This document shows positions 10,558 through 19,338 of a stretch of 64,000 nt of DNA, in pieces. The notes under the pieces are model-generated. The model was not told the origin of the DNA and did not search any database. It was given only the letters and a program-made list of their open reading frames with translations. This stretch comes from Wenyingzhuangia aestuarii (GTDB lineage Bacteria > Bacteroidota > Bacteroidia > Flavobacteriales > Flavobacteriaceae): positions 62,001 to 126,000 of the forward strand of contig NZ_JAATJG010000005.1 of assembly GCF_011927765.1 (NCBI RefSeq). Direction: 5' to 3'. The stretch's first letter is position 1. Every line of letters starts with the position of its first letter. The position numbers were made by a program, and so were the translations under genes.

Positions 10558-11223
10558 TTATATAGGGTGCTTATCAATAAATAAAATGAGCTCTGATACT
10601 TTTTTTACTTCTAGCTTTTTGTACACGTTTTTTATATGAGAATGGACCGTTCCATAGGATATATTTAAGAACAAGGCTATTTCTTTTTGTGTATACCCAC
10701 CTATAAGAAGCTTTATCACTTCTTTTTCTCTTTTGGTTATTTTTTGAGTTTTTTCTATTGCCAATTTTGAAATATCATTATTAAAATTGGCAATAGTAAT
10801 AGCATATTTAGGAGTTCCTTTTTTAGTTCTATGTACCGTCATAGTAACACCTTCTACATTTCTCCAAGTCTTTTTTTGGTACCTAAGCTTATAATCTAAT
10901 TCTAAAAAACCATGGCCTCCTACTTTAAAAAAGAAAAAGGAATCTGCCAACGTAGTTACTGTAGAGGGATGCATTAAGTTTAAATAATAGAGATAGTCCT
11001 TATTTTTAAGTCTATTGTTTTCAAAACCATAGAATGTTTTAAAAGCATCATTTAAACAAACGGGCTTGTAAAATTCAACATCGTGTAGGGTTATTAATGA
11101 ATTTGATTGGTTGATTATTTCTAAAAACACCTCACAATCATGTATATTAACAAAGTCAACAGATTTGACTTTGATAGTATTGACAAGTTCATTTAATTCC
11201 TTTCTTAACGTATCTTTACACAT
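10558..11223 (-). CDS. LuxR-type transcription regulator with PAS-like N-terminal domain
   Basis: I start the gene at ATG 11223 (221 residues) rather than at the TTG at 11250. Residues 162-221 form a LuxR/NarL helix-turn-helix (ITKREKEVIKLL ... KEIALFLNISYGTVHSHIKNVYKKL). The N-terminal part has no receiver Asp motif; its layout (VCLNDAFKTFYGFENN ... LDYKLRYQKKTWRNVEG) looks PAS-like, so it probably senses a small molecule or protein directly. It is the first gene of the operon that encodes the barrel and lipoprotein and may autoregulate it. A 7-6-7 palindrome lies 94 bp upstream of its start. Confidence 0.8.
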   Translation of the reverse strand: MCKDTLRKELNELVNTIKVKSVDFVNIHDCEVFLEIINQSNSLITLHDVEFYKPVCLNDAFKTFYGFENNRLKNKDYLYYLNLMHPSTVTTLADSFFFFKVGGHGFLELDYKLRYQKKTWRNVEGVTMTVHRTKKGTPKYAITIANFNNDISKLAIEKTQKITKREKEVIKLLIGGYTQKEIALFLNISYGTVHSHIKNVYKKLEVKKVSELILFIDKHPI

Positions 11224-11544
11224 GTAATAAATAGCAATATAATTTAACAATCAACACCTTAACCAGAGGTATCTCTTAATTTTTATTTAAAACTATACTT
11301 TTAATCAGTGTTTTTCTATCCCCACAAAAGGGGATATTTTCTATTTTAAAAACATTTATCAATTCAGGAATTTTTACACTTCACAAAAACAATCTAAACA
11401 AGTAAAAGGCTGTAGGAGTAAGATTAAGACAACAAAAAGGGGGGAATAATTATTTTTTCTTATTTAGATCATTCAAAAATCAGTTACGCGTAAGCGTTAT
11501 TGATAGAATAGAAACGGCATAAAAGAGGTTCTTTAAGAAAAGAA
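11224..11544. other. Regulatory intergenic stretch
   Basis: About 320 bp between two minus-strand regulator genes. It contains the TATCCCC palindrome at 11317-11336, a G-run at 11441-11446, and a weak hairpin (arms 11528-11534 and 11539-11545) right at the stop codon of the upstream small LuxR-type gene. No coding frame is convincing and I found no exact TAnnTTTG box for the downstream operon. Confidence 0.5.
11317..11336. promoter_or_regulatory. Perfect palindrome TATCCCC-N6-GGGGATA
   Basis: The 7-base arms are perfectly complementary around a six-base spacer, with no T-run, so it looks like an operator rather than a terminator. It is 94 bp upstream of the LuxR-type regulator gene. A close copy with a truncated right arm stands before the sensor kinase gene at 12073-12090. 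Confidence 0.5.
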
Positions 11545-12149: not shown

Positions 12150-13949
12150 ATGGTTTATAAAAAAAAAATGAAATTAAAATTCCTGTTTATACTCATTGTG
12201 CTTGTTTGTACTAATCTTCAAGCCCAATTTAAATTAGAGGGTAATATTTTTCTACTTGATAAATATGATGACCAAATCACTTTAGAGGATGCCATTAATT
12301 TAGAAACAAAAGGCCTTTTTAACATCCCCTATAAAACTGAAACTTATTTCTTTTTAGAGGGTAAAGAAGCCGGATGGTTAGTTATTAACATCCCTAAACA
12401 AGAGCAAGGTCTTTGGATTAGCATCCAAAATTCACTCTTAGAAGAATTAAATTTTTATCAACACTATAACAACATTAAAAAAGAACTCAGCCCTAATAAG
12501 GGATATCGTTTTCCTATAGTGTCAATCGCTAAAAACACAACTCCTTGTAAACTCTATATAAGAACAAAAGATGCATTAAGTTATAGAACCGAATTTATTA
12601 TAAAATCCTATAATTTAAAGGAGTACGAAGCAACCATGCAAAAAGATTATTTTGTAATAGGTTCTTACGCTTTTGGCTTGTTGGTGCTGTTAATATCTGC
12701 TTCAATAATATTTCTTTACAAAAAAAAGTTTGCCGTTTTGTGGTACATGATCCACTTAACTGCCTTAATTATAGAATACCTAATTTCTACAGGTACTTTT
12801 AGTCAATGGTTTGTAAGTAACGATCTAATTTTAACCTATGGATTAGATCATTTTTCTTTATTAATTTCTACCATGGCTCTTTCAGAATTTTTTAGGAACT
12901 TTTACGCATATGGTAAAAAAACAATGTTCTGTAAACATATTTATTTAGCCATAAGTATTGCCTGTGGTCTGGCCGCAATTTTTTCTATAGTAGATGGACT
13001 TTATGGAAATATGTACAATGTTGAATTTTATTCACAAACAATATTAAACTACGCATCATTACTTTCATTAATAATTCATTTCATCTTAGTTTTTTATAGG
13101 GTAATTCCTCTTTACTTATTCTTTGCTTTCTTACTACCTGTATTAGGAATTTTTGCAAACTTAGGCGATTTTAAAAACTATTTTAACAACCCTAACATCA
13201 CTTATTTTATTTTTCAGTCTGTGTATCTTGGAATTTTAATTGAAGTAATTGTGATCATCTTTTACATTATTAAAGAATCTGTAGATGGAGAACTATTGTC
13301 TGTTAAATTATCCAAAGAGAATAACGAGTTAAAAAATAATTTTCAGGAAGAAATACTAACAATACAAGAAGTACATCAAAATGCACTGGTAAACGATGTA
13401 CATGATTCTTTTGGTGGATACATAGAAGCCTTAAAACTTAACTTATTACAAAAAGATTTAAATGGTGATAAAATAAATACAATCCTAAATTCTTTTAAAA
13501 AAGATTATCGTTTTTTATTAAACTCATTATACATTCCAAACATAAATTCTACCAATTTTGAAGAGGCTATCCTGGATTATGTGAATAAAATGAATCAACT
13601 ATCTAAAGCTGTTATTTCGTACAATAGCGAAAAAGATAAGTTTATAACGATACCTCAAAACACGGCAAAACTATTGTTTAAATCTGTTTCAGAATTAACC
13701 ACAAATGCAATTAAACATGCCAATGCAAATCAAATAAACATCAATTTAATACTAACCGATTCTAAAATAGCTCTTAATATTAAAGATGATGGAAAAGGTT
13801 TTAAAAAGAGTGATATTAAAAACACGTCTTTTGGTTTAACAAGTATTAAAGACAGAATTGAGTCTCTTAATGGAATCTTTATTTTAAATTCTACCAAAGA
13901 AAAAGGAACAGAAATTATAATGGAGTTAAGTTTAAATGAGCCTTCTTAA
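12150..13949 (+). CDS. 7TM-type sensor histidine kinase
   Basis: The 599-residue protein has a signal-like N-terminus, an extracytoplasmic beta domain (about 27-160, 7TMR-DISMED2-like), seven predicted membrane segments (about 168-376), a short coiled coil, then a HisKA_3-type dimerisation domain with the phospho-accepting His418 in NDVHDSFGG, and a HATPase domain (about 505-595: ELTTNAIKHA, DDGKGF, SFGLTSIKDRIE). HisKA_3 kinases pair with NarL/LuxR-type response regulators; a suitable one lies at 18727 and no other receiver is in the window. The start may also be ATG 12168. Its stop overlaps the start of the catalase-related gene by 14 bp, so the two are probably translated together. Confidence 0.85.
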   Translation: MVYKKKMKLKFLFILIVLVCTNLQAQFKLEGNIFLLDKYDDQITLEDAINLETKGLFNIPYKTETYFFLEGKEAGWLVINIPKQEQGLWISIQNSLLEELNFYQHYNNIKKELSPNKGYRFPIVSIAKNTTPCKLYIRTKDALSYRTEFIIKSYNLKEYEATMQKDYFVIGSYAFGLLVLLISASIIFLYKKKFAVLWYMIHLTALIIEYLISTGTFSQWFVSNDLILTYGLDHFSLLISTMALSEFFRNFYAYGKKTMFCKHIYLAISIACGLAAIFSIVDGLYGNMYNVEFYSQTILNYASLLSLIIHFILVFYRVIPLYLFFAFLLPVLGIFANLGDFKNYFNNPNITYFIFQSVYLGILIEVIVIIFYIIKESVDGELLSVKLSKENNELKNNFQEEILTIQEVHQNALVNDVHDSFGGYIEALKLNLLQKDLNGDKINTILNSFKKDYRFLLNSLYIPNINSTNFEEAILDYVNKMNQLSKAVISYNSEKDKFITIPQNTAKLLFKSVSELTTNAIKHANANQININLILTDSKIALNIKDDGKGFKKSDIKNTSFGLTSIKDRIESLNGIFILNSTKEKGTEIIMELSLNEPS

Positions 13950-14952
13950 ATCTAATAAGAATATGTTTAGTAAAACTGAGTTAAAATACATTCAAGAGAT
14001 TCAAGATAAAATGTCTGCTTACATAAGTAGCTCTTACAAAAAAGGGGCTACAGAAAGAGATGCACATCCAAAAACCTTAGGATTGGTAAAAGGCTATTTT
14101 AGTATAGAACCCAACTTGCCTAACGAATTAAAACAAGGAATTTTTGGTACTCAAAATAAATACCCTGTACTGATTCGTTATTCTAATGGAAACCATAAAA
14201 TACAATCAGATCTTAAAAAAGATATTAGAGGAATTAGCCTAAAATTAATAGCTGTTAGTGGCCAAAGAACTCCGGATAGTCTTGAAAAAAACACGCAAGA
14301 TTTTCTATTAATGTCTCATGCTACAATGCCTTTTGGAACGCTTAAAAAGTTTAGAGATGTAATTGTAAGTACAATTAACTCTTCTTTATTTTTAAAGCTA
14401 AAATGGTTGTTAACCAACTTAAAAACAGCCAAGCTTGTAAAAAAATCAAAACTTAGTCATCAATCTTTAAGTACTATTAATTACTGGAGTACTACTACCT
14501 ATGCCTTTGGAAATACGATGGTTAAATACAAGCTTACCCCATCGGTACATATTCACAAAAAATTTACAATAGACAATTCTTATAATAGATTAGCTAACAG
14601 ACTAAAACAAGAGTTAGCTACACAAGAAATAGCTTATGATTTTTGTATTCAGTTTTACAAAAACGAAAAGGAAACACCAACCAAGGACATGTCTGTAGAA
14701 TGGGATGAAAAATTAAGTCCTTTTAAAAAAGTAGCAAGCCTTACAATTCCCAAACAAGTAGTAGGCAAACATGTTAAACTCAATCAAAAAATAACCTATT
14801 CACTAACCAATAGTCTTTTGGAACACAAAGCTGTTGGAGAGTTAAATAATGTTAGAATTAAGGTATACAAGGCATTAGCTGAACTAAGACATCATTTAAA
14901 CAACAACAATCCAAAGTACGAACCTACCCTAGAGGATTTTAAGAACTTATAG
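13936..14952 (+). CDS. Catalase-related haem protein (y4iL/SrpA-like group)
   Basis: At 338 residues it is much shorter than true catalases and fits the catalase-like haem proteins that include hydroperoxide-converting enzymes. Visible landmarks: the distal His44 in RDAHPKTLG (catalase VHAKG), the haem-pocket stretch IRYSNG ... KDIRGISLKL (71-104), and a C-terminal R307-x-x-x-Y311 matching the catalase proximal Arg/Tyr. Where catalases carry the distal Asn, my reading is Ser127-His128, so ordinary H2O2 dismutation is doubtful. ATG 13963 is an alternative start. It overlaps the kinase gene by 14 bp and the convergent COX-like gene by 6 bp. A role in handling lipid hydroperoxides made by the neighbour is inference; a simple peroxide-protection role is the alternative. 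Confidence 0.75.
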   Translation: MSLLKSNKNMFSKTELKYIQEIQDKMSAYISSSYKKGATERDAHPKTLGLVKGYFSIEPNLPNELKQGIFGTQNKYPVLIRYSNGNHKIQSDLKKDIRGISLKLIAVSGQRTPDSLEKNTQDFLLMSHATMPFGTLKKFRDVIVSTINSSLFLKLKWLLTNLKTAKLVKKSKLSHQSLSTINYWSTTTYAFGNTMVKYKLTPSVHIHKKFTIDNSYNRLANRLKQELATQEIAYDFCIQFYKNEKETPTKDMSVEWDEKLSPFKKVASLTIPKQVVGKHVKLNQKITYSLTNSLLEHKAVGELNNVRIKVYKALAELRHHLNNNNPKYEPTLEDFKNL

Positions 14953-16563
14953 TTTTTGAGACACTTTGTTGTAATTAAAGTTTACAGCACTATGAGTCTC
15001 TTCGGTAAAGTCTACAATAGATTTTACACTACTAAATTGCTGAATAAGCTTCCAACCTAAGGGACTAAATGTTTGTTCATTAAACACGTTTTCGGACAAC
15101 AAAGGATTTGTTAACGCATGTGAAAAAGCATCACTAGCAATCATTTGTAACATTAAATTTCCTAAAATAGGTTTCTCTTCGTACAAAGGATTTTTAGGAG
15201 GGTCTTGGGCCAAAGCTCCTATCACCAAATCAACCTTTTCTACATCTCCATCATACAAGCTATTCAGAATACTTAATTGATCTTTGTCTTTTGTTATATC
15301 AGACATTTTTTTAGGTCTAGCATTAAAGAATTTAGTCATAGAACCCGAAAACTGTTCACAATAATCTGCATAGGAAGTTAACTTAGATGCTCTTGAAATA
15401 AATAAAGTCATCAGTTCTGCCTCTTTCATAAAGTCTGGAGTATTCATTAATGTCATCTTACCCGCTTTTTGATAAGACAACTGTTCTAAAATAGAAGTGA
15501 TTGAGTTCTCTTCTACAAACTGATTGTTAAATCTAAAAACATCTTTGGTGGCATAAACTTTTCCGTTGAATTGCATGTGATCTGGAATCATAGAATGCCA
15601 TCGGTAGAGCAAATTAAACTCTGTAGAAATCCAATTATTTCTATACCAATTTTTCTTGGGAGCATAGGTGGTGTCTAATTCAAACTTCATCCATTTAAAA
15701 GGTTTTAAATGGTTTACATAATCTTCTACAACAACCTTAATTAAAATTACAATCAATATATTTCTTGTTGTCTGAAAAATTTGTTCATCTCCCCAATTAT
15801 ATTCCTTTTCAAGCTGACGGGCTATTTTATTATGCAATCTTAAAAACAGCGTATTAATGGTACTATGCGAAACGGTAGAATTTCCTCTTCCCAATCCCGT
15901 AGCATAAAATTTTCTTTTTTTAGCATCGTCTTTCCATAACTCCCTGTATACAGTAGGCAAATAAGAAATATATTCTAACTCTTTAAAGGCGGATTTAACC
16001 TCTAAGTTTTCATCAAATAAATAAGGAGGAAATTCTTTACCCTTTATGATTTGAGAGAATAATGTACCTCCTTTATGACTCCTTAAAGCATTTGTGGTGG
16101 TTTTGTTCAATCCATAAAGCTGACACAAGTCTATTTCGTGATTAGAAGTATTTTTTCTAAGGTCCTTAAAATCAATTCTAAAAAAAGCATCTGTAAACCA
16201 TTGTGCAAACCCCATAAACAACAGAGATGTTCTATGGCAAGGCTCCATGGGTTTTCCGTTTCTTATAAAAGCATCAATCACCTTACTTATAGGCGGTAGT
16301 GTTTGTTGATGTTCTTCTTTTGCTACAGGTAAAAGTCTATTGTTATAGGTTTTATCTTTTAAACTTTCCCATGATGTATAATTGTTGACCTCCCATGCAT
16401 CTGGATTTTTTAAATCGGGCATAAAAAAACAACGATCATTACGCTGTACCATAGTGCCAGGAGCTGCTATTTCTGAATAAGTACTAAAAGGATAAGGTCT
16501 AGACGGTTTAGATTGTATGTTACTGTTAATAACCCATTTAGATAATTGTTTATTGAACCCCAT
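14947..16563 (-). CDS. Cyclooxygenase-like animal-type haem peroxidase
   Basis: This 538-residue protein follows the animal COX fold in order: FAQWFTDAFF (119-128), IDLCQLYG (144-151), QIIKGKEFPP (171-180), LRLHNKIARQL (241-251), GDEQIFQTTRNILI (258-271), EDYVNHL (280-286) and EFNLLYRWHSMIPD (315-328). Tyr320 and His323 match the COX catalytic Tyr385 and proximal His388; Gln121 matches Gln203. The distal peroxidase His207 is replaced by Asp125. No signal peptide, EGF or membrane-binding domain is visible, so it is probably cytoplasmic or peripheral. Known relatives (COX, alpha-dioxygenase, linoleate diol synthase) oxygenate fatty acids. Its 3' end overlaps the catalase-related gene; its start is 39 bp from the divergent papain-like gene. 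The substrate is unknown. Confidence 0.8.
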   Translation of the reverse strand: MGFNKQLSKWVINSNIQSKPSRPYPFSTYSEIAAPGTMVQRNDRCFFMPDLKNPDAWEVNNYTSWESLKDKTYNNRLLPVAKEEHQQTLPPISKVIDAFIRNGKPMEPCHRTSLLFMGFAQWFTDAFFRIDFKDLRKNTSNHEIDLCQLYGLNKTTTNALRSHKGGTLFSQIIKGKEFPPYLFDENLEVKSAFKELEYISYLPTVYRELWKDDAKKRKFYATGLGRGNSTVSHSTINTLFLRLHNKIARQLEKEYNWGDEQIFQTTRNILIVILIKVVVEDYVNHLKPFKWMKFELDTTYAPKKNWYRNNWISTEFNLLYRWHSMIPDHMQFNGKVYATKDVFRFNNQFVEENSITSILEQLSYQKAGKMTLMNTPDFMKEAELMTLFISRASKLTSYADYCEQFSGSMTKFFNARPKKMSDITKDKDQLSILNSLYDGDVEKVDLVIGALAQDPPKNPLYEEKPILGNLMLQMIASDAFSHALTNPLLSENVFNEQTFSPLGWKLIQQFSSVKSIVDFTEETHSAVNFNYNKVSQKL

Positions 16564-16602: not shown

Positions 16603-17631
16603 ATGAGCGCTGTAATTTCTGATGAACTACAAGATTTTATCAATAACTTAGAACAAGGTGATATTATTATGCACCACGCGCATGGATTTCTTTCTGAATC
16701 TATTAGAGCTTTAGACGGAAGCAACTATAACCATTGTTCTATTTACGACAAAGATGGTTATGTTTATGAATCTGTTACTGGAGGTATCAAAAAAAAAGAA
16801 TTAAAGGAAAGTATAGCAAAGCAAAAAACAGCTGCTATTACAAACTTTAGATTAGATAATCTCCCAGAAGATAAAAGTTTATTGATAGAAACCATAGAAA
16901 AATATCATACTAGTAATATTTATGCTTATGATCAAATTGTATTATTAGCCATGATTTTACTAAAAAAAGAACTTGCTCTAGACAATCCCGAAACAAGATC
17001 TTTTGTAGAAAACTTCCTAATATATACAACAAACTTTTTAACCAACCTTTTTGATCCAAATAATAAAAATGAAATTTGTTCTGAAGTTATATACAGAGCT
17101 TATGAAGAAGTTGCTAATCATACTGGAAATACAGATTTCCATATGGTTATTGATATAGATGAATCTATGATCCCTTATGATGAGGATAAGAAAATACTCG
17201 TAAAAAAAATAAAGCGTATTTTAAAAAACAACAAATCATTACATTTTGACACCAAAGCGCTAAAAAAATTAAAAAGAAAAAAAACGGGAGTTAGTAGACA
17301 AGAAATAGAAGAAAGTTTTAAAAGAATGCTCCCTATTCTAGAAAAAAGAAAACTAGCCAAAAAAGGGGGTATTCGTAAAGGAAACAAACTTTTACTTCCA
17401 AGAGGAATCTATAGTAGAGAATTTGTACGCGATGAAATAAAGAATTGGGATAAGAATATTAAGTATTTTGAAAGAACAAATCCAGAGACTGCTAAACTGT
17501 TAAAAAAAATTAATATTCATAACTTTATTACACCTGCAAATATTTCGGTACACTGTCTGAATGCTAAAAAACTAAACACCTTTAAAACAGGAATTGAGTA
17601 CGATTCAAATTGCCCATTTTGTGCTATTTAA
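16603..17631 (+). CDS. Permuted papain-fold protein, YiiX/NlpC-LRAT-like
   Basis: Residues 15-180 match the circularly permuted NlpC/P60 (YiiX/YaeF, LRAT-like) fold: LEQGDIIMHHA (16-26), His44 in NYNHCSIY, Glu56 in YVYES and the nucleophile Cys159 in NEICSEVIYRAY. Members of this superfamily act as acyltransferases, thioesterases or lipases, and YiiX-type proteins are thought to act on lipids. A Lys-rich tail of about 160 residues has no match I recognise and ends in a CPFC motif at 337-340, three residues before the C-terminus of this 342-residue protein. No signal peptide is present. It is divergent from the COX-like gene with a 39-bp shared upstream region and convergent, with a 4-bp overlap, with the next gene. 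Confidence 0.7.
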   Translation: MSAVISDELQDFINNLEQGDIIMHHAHGFLSESIRALDGSNYNHCSIYDKDGYVYESVTGGIKKKELKESIAKQKTAAITNFRLDNLPEDKSLLIETIEKYHTSNIYAYDQIVLLAMILLKKELALDNPETRSFVENFLIYTTNFLTNLFDPNNKNEICSEVIYRAYEEVANHTGNTDFHMVIDIDESMIPYDEDKKILVKKIKRILKNNKSLHFDTKALKKLKRKKTGVSRQEIEESFKRMLPILEKRKLAKKGGIRKGNKLLLPRGIYSREFVRDEIKNWDKNIKYFERTNPETAKLLKKINIHNFITPANISVHCLNAKKLNTFKTGIEYDSNCPFCAI

Positions 17632-18650
17632 ACTTTAAAAAATCTAATCACTAGCTTTATAAACCACCCTTTTTTAAACTTAAATTTTCTATAAACATCA
17701 TAAGTTCCATGCTGTTTTTTGATTAAAAAAGACTGCGAAAATTCTTTTTCATTTAAATCTGTCGTTTTAAGACCATACCTAATATCGTTAACAACTAACT
17801 GGTTATTTATAAGTGAAAAAGAATACCAGTGATTTAATATGTTTTTTAACTTACTTACAACAACCAATAGTTCTGCATCGTTATAATCAACTAAATCTTC
17901 GTTTACTTTTATGTGAACAAACTTAATTTCTTTTGTTTTTTGAAAAATAGAATAATAACCTATTAAATAACTACCATCCTTAGCTCTTACGTTTACAGTC
18001 CACAAGATAGCATTTCCAAATGTGGGCTTAATTTCAGTTTCATAAGACAATACTCCTTGGACTTCCAAGGCTTTAGCAAACACTTTTTGTATATAAAAGC
18101 TTAAGCAATACGTTAATAATAAATAGGTAAAAGCTATACATATAGGTACATAAACCAAATACGGATTAGCTATTTTAAAAAGAAAAAATAGCTGAATGAT
18201 CATTGTCAAACTAAAAAAGAAATCAATAATTGAAATACTTTTAGTTGCTACAACTTTCTTAAAAGGATAAAATAAATAAACTCCCCATGAAGTAAATAAA
18301 TCTAAAACCAAGTGTGAAAACAGAATAATAAAAAAACCAAGACTGCAAAACCAAAAATTATTGGATCCTATAAAGTGAAACTTAAATAAAATGAAAGAAA
18401 ACAATATGGATAAAGGTATATGAACTAGTATAGAATGTGTCCATTTTCTATGGTTTTCTAGGTAATAAAGGTTTGATTTAAGTTTTTTATTTAAAAAGTC
18501 AATATCTGGCAAAAAACCTACAAAAGCACCTATAGCAAAAGCTATTAAAGTAGCCGTTAGATCATTCCACGAATTGTTTCTTACTAAAGTTTCTTTAAAC
18601 AAAACAACTCCTAAGGTAGCTCCAACGGAAACATGAGAATCAATAAACAT
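17628..18650 (-). CDS. YdjM/DUF457-like membrane-bound metal-dependent hydrolase
   Basis: The N-terminal 200 residues carry the YdjM family signature: SHVSVGA with His6, LPDIDF (Asp49, Asp51), NHRKWTHS (His67, His72) and SHLVLDLFTSWG followed by YPFKK, set among five or so membrane helices. In this family the His/Asp residues are thought to bind metal in the inner membrane; the substrate is not established. The last 140 residues form a soluble, beta-rich domain that I do not recognise. It is convergent with the papain-like gene (4-bp overlap) and divergent from the response regulator gene. Confidence 0.75.
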   Translation of the reverse strand: MFIDSHVSVGATLGVVLFKETLVRNNSWNDLTATLIAFAIGAFVGFLPDIDFLNKKLKSNLYYLENHRKWTHSILVHIPLSILFSFILFKFHFIGSNNFWFCSLGFFIILFSHLVLDLFTSWGVYLFYPFKKVVATKSISIIDFFFSLTMIIQLFFLFKIANPYLVYVPICIAFTYLLLTYCLSFYIQKVFAKALEVQGVLSYETEIKPTFGNAILWTVNVRAKDGSYLIGYYSIFQKTKEIKFVHIKVNEDLVDYNDAELLVVVSKLKNILNHWYSFSLINNQLVVNDIRYGLKTTDLNEKEFSQSFLIKKQHGTYDVYRKFKFKKGWFIKLVIRFFKV

Positions 18651-18713: not shown

Positions 18714-18721
18714 TATTTTTG
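18714..18721 (+). promoter_or_regulatory. -7 promoter box TATTTTTG of the response regulator gene
   Basis: An exact TAnnTTTG box ends five bases before ATG 18727. It shows that an upstream GTG at 18721 lies inside the promoter and cannot be the start, and suggests a leaderless or nearly leaderless mRNA. I see no clear -33 TTTG at the usual distance. Confidence 0.5.
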
Positions 18722-18726
18722 TGTGT

Positions 18727-19338
18727 ATGAGCGAATTAACGAAAAAATATAGAATAATTTTAGCAGATGACAATCGTTTTTTTTCTGATGCCTTAAAAAG
18801 CTATTTAGAAAACAACGAATGTTTTAAGATTGTGGCTATTTGCAACACGATAAAAAGCACTATTATTAATACAAATAACGTTGATTTTGATCTGCTGATC
18901 CTAGATTTAAGTTTTAAAGGGATTAATTCTATAAACTATTTAAAGGACATTAGACCTGACCATAAAATATTTAAAATCATTTGTTTAAGTAGTTTTGACA
19001 ATGCCATTCTACAACAAGAAATTATTGATTTAGGTGTAGACTATATGGCTAGTAAAAACGACTCCATTGAAACGTTTCCTTTACTCATAAAAAATGTAAT
19101 GGAAAGTAATATTGATGCTATATGCAATCAAAAAAAACAAGCAACTCTGTCTGAAAGACAAATTGAAATCATCAAAGCTTGTTATGAATATTCTACTGAA
19201 AAAGACATCGCAGATTCACTTAACATCAGTATCAATACCTTAAAATCTCACAAACAAAATATCTTTTCTATTCTAAACGTAAAAAACAATATAGAACTTA
19301 TCAAATTTGCAATTAAAGAAGGATTATTAATTACCTAA
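18727..19338 (+). CDS. NarL/LuxR-type response regulator
   Basis: The 203-residue protein has an N-terminal receiver domain (about 7-125) with the acidic pair at 14-15 (LADDNRF), the phospho-acceptor Asp60 in LLILDLSF, Ser at LSSFDN and Lys at ASKND, and a C-terminal LuxR-type helix-turn-helix (about 140-200: LSERQIEIIKACYEY ... ISINTLKSHKQNIFSIL). It is an orphan in its immediate vicinity; the HisKA_3-type kinase at 12150 is a plausible partner because the family pairing fits and no other receiver is present in the window. A bidirectional terminator follows. Confidence 0.9.
   Translation: MSELTKKYRIILADDNRFFSDALKSYLENNECFKIVAICNTIKSTIINTNNVDFDLLILDLSFKGINSINYLKDIRPDHKIFKIICLSSFDNAILQQEIIDLGVDYMASKNDSIETFPLLIKNVMESNIDAICNQKKQATLSERQIEIIKACYEYSTEKDIADSLNISINTLKSHKQNIFSILNVKNNIELIKFAIKEGLLIT

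Follow-up and report, generated by a model that had tools for sequence, protein, structure and literature searches.

Introduction

Cyclooxygenase (COX), the enzyme blocked by aspirin, combines two haem reactions within one protein: its distal His serves the peroxidase step, and formation of its Tyr radical requires the cleavage of a peroxide. The linoleate 10S-dioxygenase (10S-DOX) of Nostoc, where a distal Asp stands in the motif F143-TDS-F, makes 10S-hydroperoxides from oleate and linoleate (PMC13049297), and the linoleate hydroperoxide is the substrate of a second protein, a catalase-related lyase (PMC13049297; PMC9410191). Here, we describe a locus of the flavobacterium Wenyingzhuangia aestuarii in which a gene for a COX-like haem protein, also with a distal Asp, lies beside a gene for a catalase-related haem protein. 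The locus was studied in a stretch of 64,000 nucleotides (contig NZ_JAATJG010000005.1, positions 62,001 to 126,000), hereafter the window.

The excerpt of a 2026 review that deals with the COX His207 position states only that COX and the DOXs differ there, and the same review calls the peroxidase activity of DOXs little known (PMC13049297). Exchange of the distal His for Gln in a fungal 8R-DOX only reduced catalysis, and the position occupied by COX Ser353 and 10S-DOX Thr310 has been linked to product specificity (PMC13049297). The DOXs of Coprinopsis retain the distal His (PMC9579011).

Results

A COX-like protein with Asp at the distal position

The open reading frame (ORF) reported in the earlier note was recovered unchanged, a minus-strand gene for 538 residues (Table 1), and an in-frame TAA two codons 5' of its ATG rules out an earlier start. 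The product belongs to the peroxidase-cyclooxygenase superfamily (Pfam PF03098, 1e-35, 123.8 bits against a cutoff of 25). It matched human COX-2 at 2.4e-44 with phmmer, and a profile built from 36 family sequences matched human COX-2 at 1.6e-107; by these scores the resemblance to COX is far above chance. Searches by sequence and by fold both gave COX-1/2 as the closest solved structures and placed plant alpha-dioxygenase (alpha-DOX), lacto- and myeloperoxidase much further away, the protein being closer to COX than to alpha-DOX.

In both alignments, the one from phmmer and the one from the family profile, AQWFTD lies without gaps over AQHFTH, and hence Asp125 sits on His207, with Gln121 over Gln203. 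The motif EFNLLYRWHSMIPD brings Tyr320 and His323 onto the catalytic Tyr385 and the proximal His388, and the description of GDEQIFQTTRNILI and EDYVNHL as almost word-for-word matches to COX is a fair one. These assignments, including the numbering of Tyr320 and His323, had been made in the earlier note, and the alignments uphold them. COX numbers are those of COX-1 and were derived by counting chain positions in the profile alignment, which further pairs Tyr282 with Tyr348, Arg226 with Val291, Lys287 with Ser353, Ile475 with Gly526, Ala479 with Ser530 and Asn15 with Arg120. The first residue of the structural model pairs with COX residue 106, and the epidermal growth factor (EGF)-like part and most membrane helices are absent. 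Among the features by which a COX is recognised, the catalytic Tyr and the proximal His are thus kept; the distal His, Arg120, Ser530, the EGF-like domain and a full membrane-binding domain are not.

The distal Asp is found throughout the sequences read

We aligned 91 rows, i.e. the window, 10 loci from relatives and plasmids, and 80 loci from named genomes, these being the best 80 of 457 relatives; the word invariant applies here to the sequences read. Two loci (L002 and L014) are apparently one and both are among the rows. L005 and L012 come from two plasmids of a single strain, and the ORF set was made without L001, L003 and L004. Gln121, Thr124, Asp125, Tyr282, Tyr320 and Trp322 are kept in all 91 rows and His323 in 90, and the rows carrying Asp span several phyla. 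One Pseudomonadales metagenome-assembled genome encodes a COX-like protein with Ser for the proximal His (L040:4857-6422). The position of COX Val291 holds Arg in 72 rows, His in 13, Asn in three and another residue in three. At the position of Lys287 and 10S-DOX Thr310 we found Thr in 42 rows, Ala in 21, Ser in 15 and Lys in five, and all five rows with Lys are flavobacterial (the window, L002, L014, L015 and L016).

The pattern used to scan the named genomes itself contains the Asp, and a second, independent pattern was also used. The 23 of the 80 loci that lie outside the Asp-bearing pattern and matched the second one all have Asp. So do all 32 loci read from whole-protein searches, of which 30 come from the Nostocaceae family and two are L014 and L016 again (as L096 and L097); within the 32, L094 is L048 again. 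The cyanobacterial query had matches in 71 of 192 Nostocaceae-family genomes, many of which are brief segments of distant, peroxidase-like frames, and not every match became a locus. Nine of the 32 loci agree with the published residues of Nostoc 10S-DOX at all ten positions checked (Phe143 serving as anchor), and eight of these nine encode exactly 542 residues, which is the published length.

Read from these alignments, the exchange of His for Asp is a mark of the family, already present in a characterised enzyme, and no private loss. We rejected a lone loss of the distal His in the window protein, Asp being invariant in the sequences read. The earlier note had proposed an oxygenase with a lost or changed peroxidase step, and this holds in part: its residues are read correctly and an oxygenase is likely, and the replacement of the distal His is a trait shared by the family. 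We also rejected the Val291 position as the source of a distal His, which is found there in 13 rows, the window having Arg226. The 13 relatives are L031, L039, L044, L046, L057, L075, L076, L081, L082, L086, L088, L089 and L092, and in these another helix might supply a distal His.

A catalase-related partner

Searches of Pfam, NCBIfam and PDB with the product of the adjacent gene (13936-14952) as a single sequence were empty. A profile of its 16-member family matched the mycobacterial catalase-related protein 3e4w (2.6e-14), catalases, and the coral allene oxide synthase (AOS) 1u5u (1.2e-8), and the AlphaFold2 model (pLDDT 87.1) found 3e4y, 3e4w and 1u5u as best folds, followed by catalases. 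Since the single-sequence searches were empty, the relationship to catalases is visible only through the family profile and the predicted fold. The protein keeps Arg41, His44, Arg81, Arg307, Tyr311 and Arg318, and so unites a catalase fold, the motif R-x3-Y-x6-R and a distal His. The last three residues have the spacing of catalases, the motif having been placed by spacing and without residue alignment. Arg41-x2-His44 has the spacing of R64-x2-H67 in coral AOS (residue numbers from PMC5617202).

The profile has a single match in the genome of W. aestuarii, beside the COX-like gene. Two of seven genomes of the genus carry both genes, the second apparently being that of L014 (Wenyingzhuangia), and five have no COX-like match; four of these five have no catalase-related match either, and the fifth gave a weak hit in a 501-residue frame. 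Distances between COX-like proteins and those between their catalase-related partners correlate: r is 0.94 for 26 loci (L002 being excluded as a duplicate and L015 as partial), a value inflated by shared ancestry, and drops to 0.53 after thinning to 11 loci that differ by more than 35% (0 of 5000 permutations in each case). Catalase-related genes were also seen in two genomes of the same order without a COX-like match (G063 and G076; L129 and L128).

Partner genes of the relatives

Fatty acids or their hydroperoxides serve as substrates of catalase-related enzymes, lipoxygenases and some P450s in known systems, and because partners of these types accompany COX-like genes a role in lipid oxygenation is supported. 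Among the 80 named-genome loci, a catalase-related gene lies within 1 kb in 16 and at 1.8-3.8 kb in six, and a P450 gene within 100 bp in 19, one of these being a 123-residue fragment (L028). The P450 search used a profile made from two sequences, and a general P450 motif matched no further gene. Eight Nitrosomonas-type loci share a downstream gene, and four of them are also among the six with a distant catalase-related gene (1.8-3.2 kb). The shared gene lies directly 3' of the COX-like gene (Nitrosomonas/Nitrosospira); Pfam identifies it as a lipoxygenase in L075 (L075:6523-8190), the one member run, and the similar genes in L057, L076, L082, L086, L088, L089 and L092 were assigned by BLAST grouping. 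The Nostocaceae loci have a catalase-related gene in the flanking 1.5 kb or so in 28 of 30 cases.

Fusions occur as well. In two of the 80 loci the P450 is fused to a COX-like protein with distal Asp, which recalls the fungal linoleate diol synthases (L035:4908-7817, Mesorhizobium; L072:4899-8063, Methylocapsa). In a cyanobacterial locus a Tle1-like lipase domain stands in front of the COX-like dioxygenase (L067:3702-6536, the one frame of its kind run against Pfam), and long frames are also present in L070, L071 and L090.

COX-like relatives were matched in 12 plasmid records. Nine plasmid regions were examined: four have a catalase-like neighbour (L006, L007, L010 and L011), three a P450 (L008, L009 and L013) and two neither (L005 and L012). 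On a Methylobacterium plasmid the COX-like/catalase pair is flanked by IS3 and IS5 family transposase genes (L006:2593-9569), a gene order that suggests mobility.

A flavobacterial gene set

In the window, the COX-like and catalase-related genes are convergent, tail-to-tail, with 3' ends that overlap by 6 bp. A sensor kinase gene runs 14 bp into the start of the catalase-related gene, and a gene for a permuted papain-like protein (C92-type) is divergent from the COX-like gene (Table 1).

Table 1. Genes of the locus and residues discussed in the text, with window coordinates.
Feature	Position	Strand	Basis
COX-like haem dioxygenase, 538 aa	14947..16563	-	PF03098 and COX-2 matches
Distal motif Gln121-W-F-T-Asp125, Asp over COX His207	16189..16203	-	alignments; Q, T and D in 91/91 rows
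Arg226 at COX Val291 position, possible distal Arg	15886..15888	-	profile alignment; R 72, H 13, N 3, other 3 of 91 rows
Tyr320 (catalytic, COX Tyr385) to His323 (proximal, COX His388)	15595..15606	-	Y 91/91, H 90/91 rows
Tyr282 (COX Tyr348)	15718..15720	-	91/91 rows
Lys287, channel position of COX Ser353 / 10S-DOX Thr310	15703..15705	-	K in 5/91 rows
Catalase-related haem protein, 338 aa	13936..14952	+	family profile and AlphaFold2 fold
Arg307-x3-Tyr311-x6-Arg318, catalase-type proximal Tyr motif	14854..14889	+	R 15/16, Y 16/16, R 16/16 rows; spacing only
Probable distal His44 of catalase-related protein	14065..14067	+	H 13/16 rows, N 3/16
Seven-transmembrane (7TM)-type sensor histidine kinase	12150..13949	+	HATPase_c 9.4e-10; 7TMR-DISM_7TM 0.002, below its cutoff
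Permuted papain-like (C92/YiiX-type) protein	16603..17631	+	Peptidase_C92 8.3e-5, below Pfam cutoff
YdjM-type membrane protein	17628..18650	-	PF04307 3.4e-27
LuxR-type response regulator	18721..19338	+	Response_reg 1.3e-11, GerE 2e-12
LuxR-type regulator, other side of kinase	10558..11250	-	GerE 3.1e-15

We compared these genes with L014-L018, five flavobacterial loci from four genomes (Wenyingzhuangia and Aquimarina). Counting the window, the catalase-related gene is present in six of six loci (partial in L015, whose contig ends inside it) and the C92-type gene in six of six as well, at 25-34% identity and with its Y-x-H and CSE kept in all. A kinase homologue with its VHDSF box is found in all five loci where the gene could be looked for, the response regulator in four of six and the YdjM-type gene in four of six. 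The second LuxR-type regulator of the window, encoded beyond the kinase gene, has a homologue with 56% identity next to the L014 kinase. In L017 one strand carries the kinase, regulator, catalase-related, C92-type and COX-like genes in that succession, and their ends overlap or are separated by a few bases when the first possible start codon is taken as the start; the window has these genes in a different arrangement, with a convergent haem pair. Homologues of the kinase and of the C92-type protein were not found in the other loci of the ORF set (E 1e-4).

The novelty here is a COX-like/catalase-related pair that occurs with a C92-type gene, a kinase (in the five loci where it could be looked for) and often a response regulator in six flavobacterial loci. 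Among the open-access papers listed by searches on bacterial COX, 10S-DOX, catalase-related enzymes, oxylipins of Bacteroidetes and a distal Asp, none describes such a cassette by its title or the opening of its abstract. The gene content suggests a regulated oxylipin cassette. The assignment of the C92-type protein as a hydrolase, with a match below the Pfam cutoff, is offered as a lead.

Distribution

In a midpoint-rooted FastTree tree, taken regardless of support values, the window protein groups with Wenyingzhuangia and Aquimarina and then with Ruegeria. Full-length relatives of the COX-like protein were present in two of 99 related genomes, its own included. Its own genome was the only one with a full-length match among 395 genomes of the phylum, which otherwise gave two weak partial hits, and among 397 of the family, which gave three. 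In a viral collection 49 stretches matched a pattern and none encoded a relative. The COX-like gene is rare and patchy within the phylum and family genomes searched, a distribution that suits horizontal transfer.

Discussion

We consider it likely that the COX-like protein is a fatty-acid dioxygenase that passes its hydroperoxide to a separate enzyme of catalase fold, i.e. a system of the same broad kind as the cyanobacterial 10S-DOX. The two haem functions of COX are here probably split between two proteins. The haem, bound by His323, would generate a radical on Tyr320 that strips an unsaturated fatty acid of a hydrogen; addition of O2 and release of the fatty-acid hydroperoxide would follow. 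The catalase-related protein, with Tyr311 as haem ligand and His44 on the distal side, would break the O-O bond and yield a lyase, allene-oxide or epoxyalcohol product. The pocket of Gln121, Asp125 and Arg226 would then need to turn over only enough peroxide to prime Tyr320. As for the substrates, one Wenyingzhuangia species contains iso-branched saturated and hydroxylated chains as its major fatty acids (PMC10971456), which indicates outside substrates, probably unsaturated fatty acids such as those of algae.

Several observations weigh against a dioxygenase and lyase system of the 10S-DOX kind. The convergent pair of the window is not one transcript, and 33 of the 80 named-genome loci showed no catalase-related, P450 or lipoxygenase partner, though several are cut by contig ends and the P450 profile rests on two sequences. 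The window protein lies in another part of the tree than the Nostocaceae sequences of 10S-DOX type, is 38% identical (190/494) to one such locus, L114, and has Lys287 where 10S-DOX has Thr310. We know of no measured activity for any member of its clade. By counting, the partner has Ala43 and Ser127 in place of Thr66 and Asn137 of coral AOS; within its family Thr occupies the first position in five of 16 rows and Asn the second in eight of 16. Three Nitrosospira partners (L088, L076 and L057) have Asn instead of the distal His, and the correlation of distances between the two proteins owes part of its strength to shared ancestry. Finally, the fatty-acid profile of that one Wenyingzhuangia species, mainly saturated, branched or hydroxylated, leaves the substrate ambiguous (PMC10971456).

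One might go further and see in the flavobacterial loci a sensor-controlled oxylipin circuit. The C92-type protein may free the fatty acid, the dioxygenase would make the hydroperoxide, the catalase-related enzyme would cleave this to a signal or a volatile, and the kinase and regulator would sense the fatty acid or the product, with the distal Asp and Arg serving priming only. This proposal is tentative and rather less likely than not. If true, the cassette would amount to a two-component circuit for lipid mediators in bacteria, in which the peroxidase job of COX has shifted to a second protein.

The alternatives mostly concern what the Asp does. In a B-class dye-decolourising peroxidase (DyP) the distal Asp deprotonates H2O2 and the Arg keeps the cavity open (PMC6153280; PMC4420034). 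The alignments put Asp125 and Arg226 at distal positions in the window protein, which might then be a working peroxidase in its own right: Asp125 would accept the proton, Arg226 would be its partner, and the second protein would not be needed for activation or hydroperoxide reduction. An Asp kept in all 91 rows, with Arg in 72, argues for a job and not for decay, and since the two residues resemble the DyP distal pair, a loss of peroxidase activity should not be assumed. Yet the 19 rows without the Arg (13 of them with His) still keep the Asp, and the fold is that of COX, not of DyP, so that we hold an independent peroxidase to be doubtful. That Asp125 marks a loss of function and leaves a peroxidase-dead oxygenase, the strong form of the earlier proposal, is unlikely. 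It would fit the absence of the very His that serves the peroxidase step in COX, as well as alpha-DOXs, in which the distal His is only partially conserved (PMC8720084). But a neutral loss would drift, whereas Asp is in every row, across several phyla, in the 23 loci found independently of the Asp-bearing pattern and in the 32 from whole-protein searches. Besides, if the protein works as COX does, its Tyr radical still requires the cleavage of a peroxide.

It is highly improbable that the protein is a true cyclooxygenase and converts C20 fatty acids to prostaglandin-like endoperoxides. The closeness of the COX-1/2 structures might speak for this, but Asn15, Ala479 and Ile475 stand at the sites of Arg120, Ser530 and Gly526, the EGF-like part and most membrane helices are missing, and the characterised bacterial relative oxygenates C18 acids. 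Hardly more credible is a halide or phenol peroxidase or an alpha-DOX unrelated to hydroperoxide synthesis of the COX and 10S-DOX type: such enzymes share the Pfam family but are far more distant by sequence and fold, and Tyr320 and Trp322 are invariant and lipid-oxidation partners lie near many relatives.

A sizeable bacterial family in which the distal Asp is invariant and a second haem enzyme is often encoded nearby would provide a handle on the role of the distal His and on the origin of the two-step union in COX. The flavobacterial cassette offers a direct way to ask if bacteria make and sense oxylipins, e.g. in their dealings with algae. The value of the locus lies in the likely split of the COX reactions over two haem proteins and in this sensor-linked cassette.

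How does the system compare with those already described? With Nostoc punctiforme 10S-DOX (UniProt B2J5P4) it shares the COX fold, the equivalents of Tyr348, Tyr385 and His388, a distal Asp within FTDxF, Ile and Ala at the Gly526 and Ser530 sites, and an adjacent gene for a catalase-related partner. It differs in having about 34 fewer N-terminal residues, in lacking the three membrane helices, and in a convergent gene pair with additional kinase and C92-type genes. A strict orthologue of 10S-DOX is ruled out by the clade, Lys287 and the shorter N terminus. Lys287, at a position that bears on product specificity, argues against a simple copy of the 10S product; one might speculate that it holds the carboxylate. 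Animal COX-1/2 have the same fold and the equivalents of Gln203, Tyr348, Tyr385 and His388, whereas the window protein has Asp for the distal His and is without Arg120, Ser530 and the EGF-like part. The partner resembles the coral catalase-related allene oxide synthase / hydroperoxide lyase in fold, three Arg, distal His and Tyr ligand, but the coral enzyme is fused to a lipoxygenase and the partner in the window is encoded by a separate gene beside a COX-like one. The fungal linoleate diol synthases, which are DOX-P450 fusions, likewise couple a COX-like dioxygenase to a second haem enzyme, and there the second enzyme is a P450 where that of the window is catalase-like.

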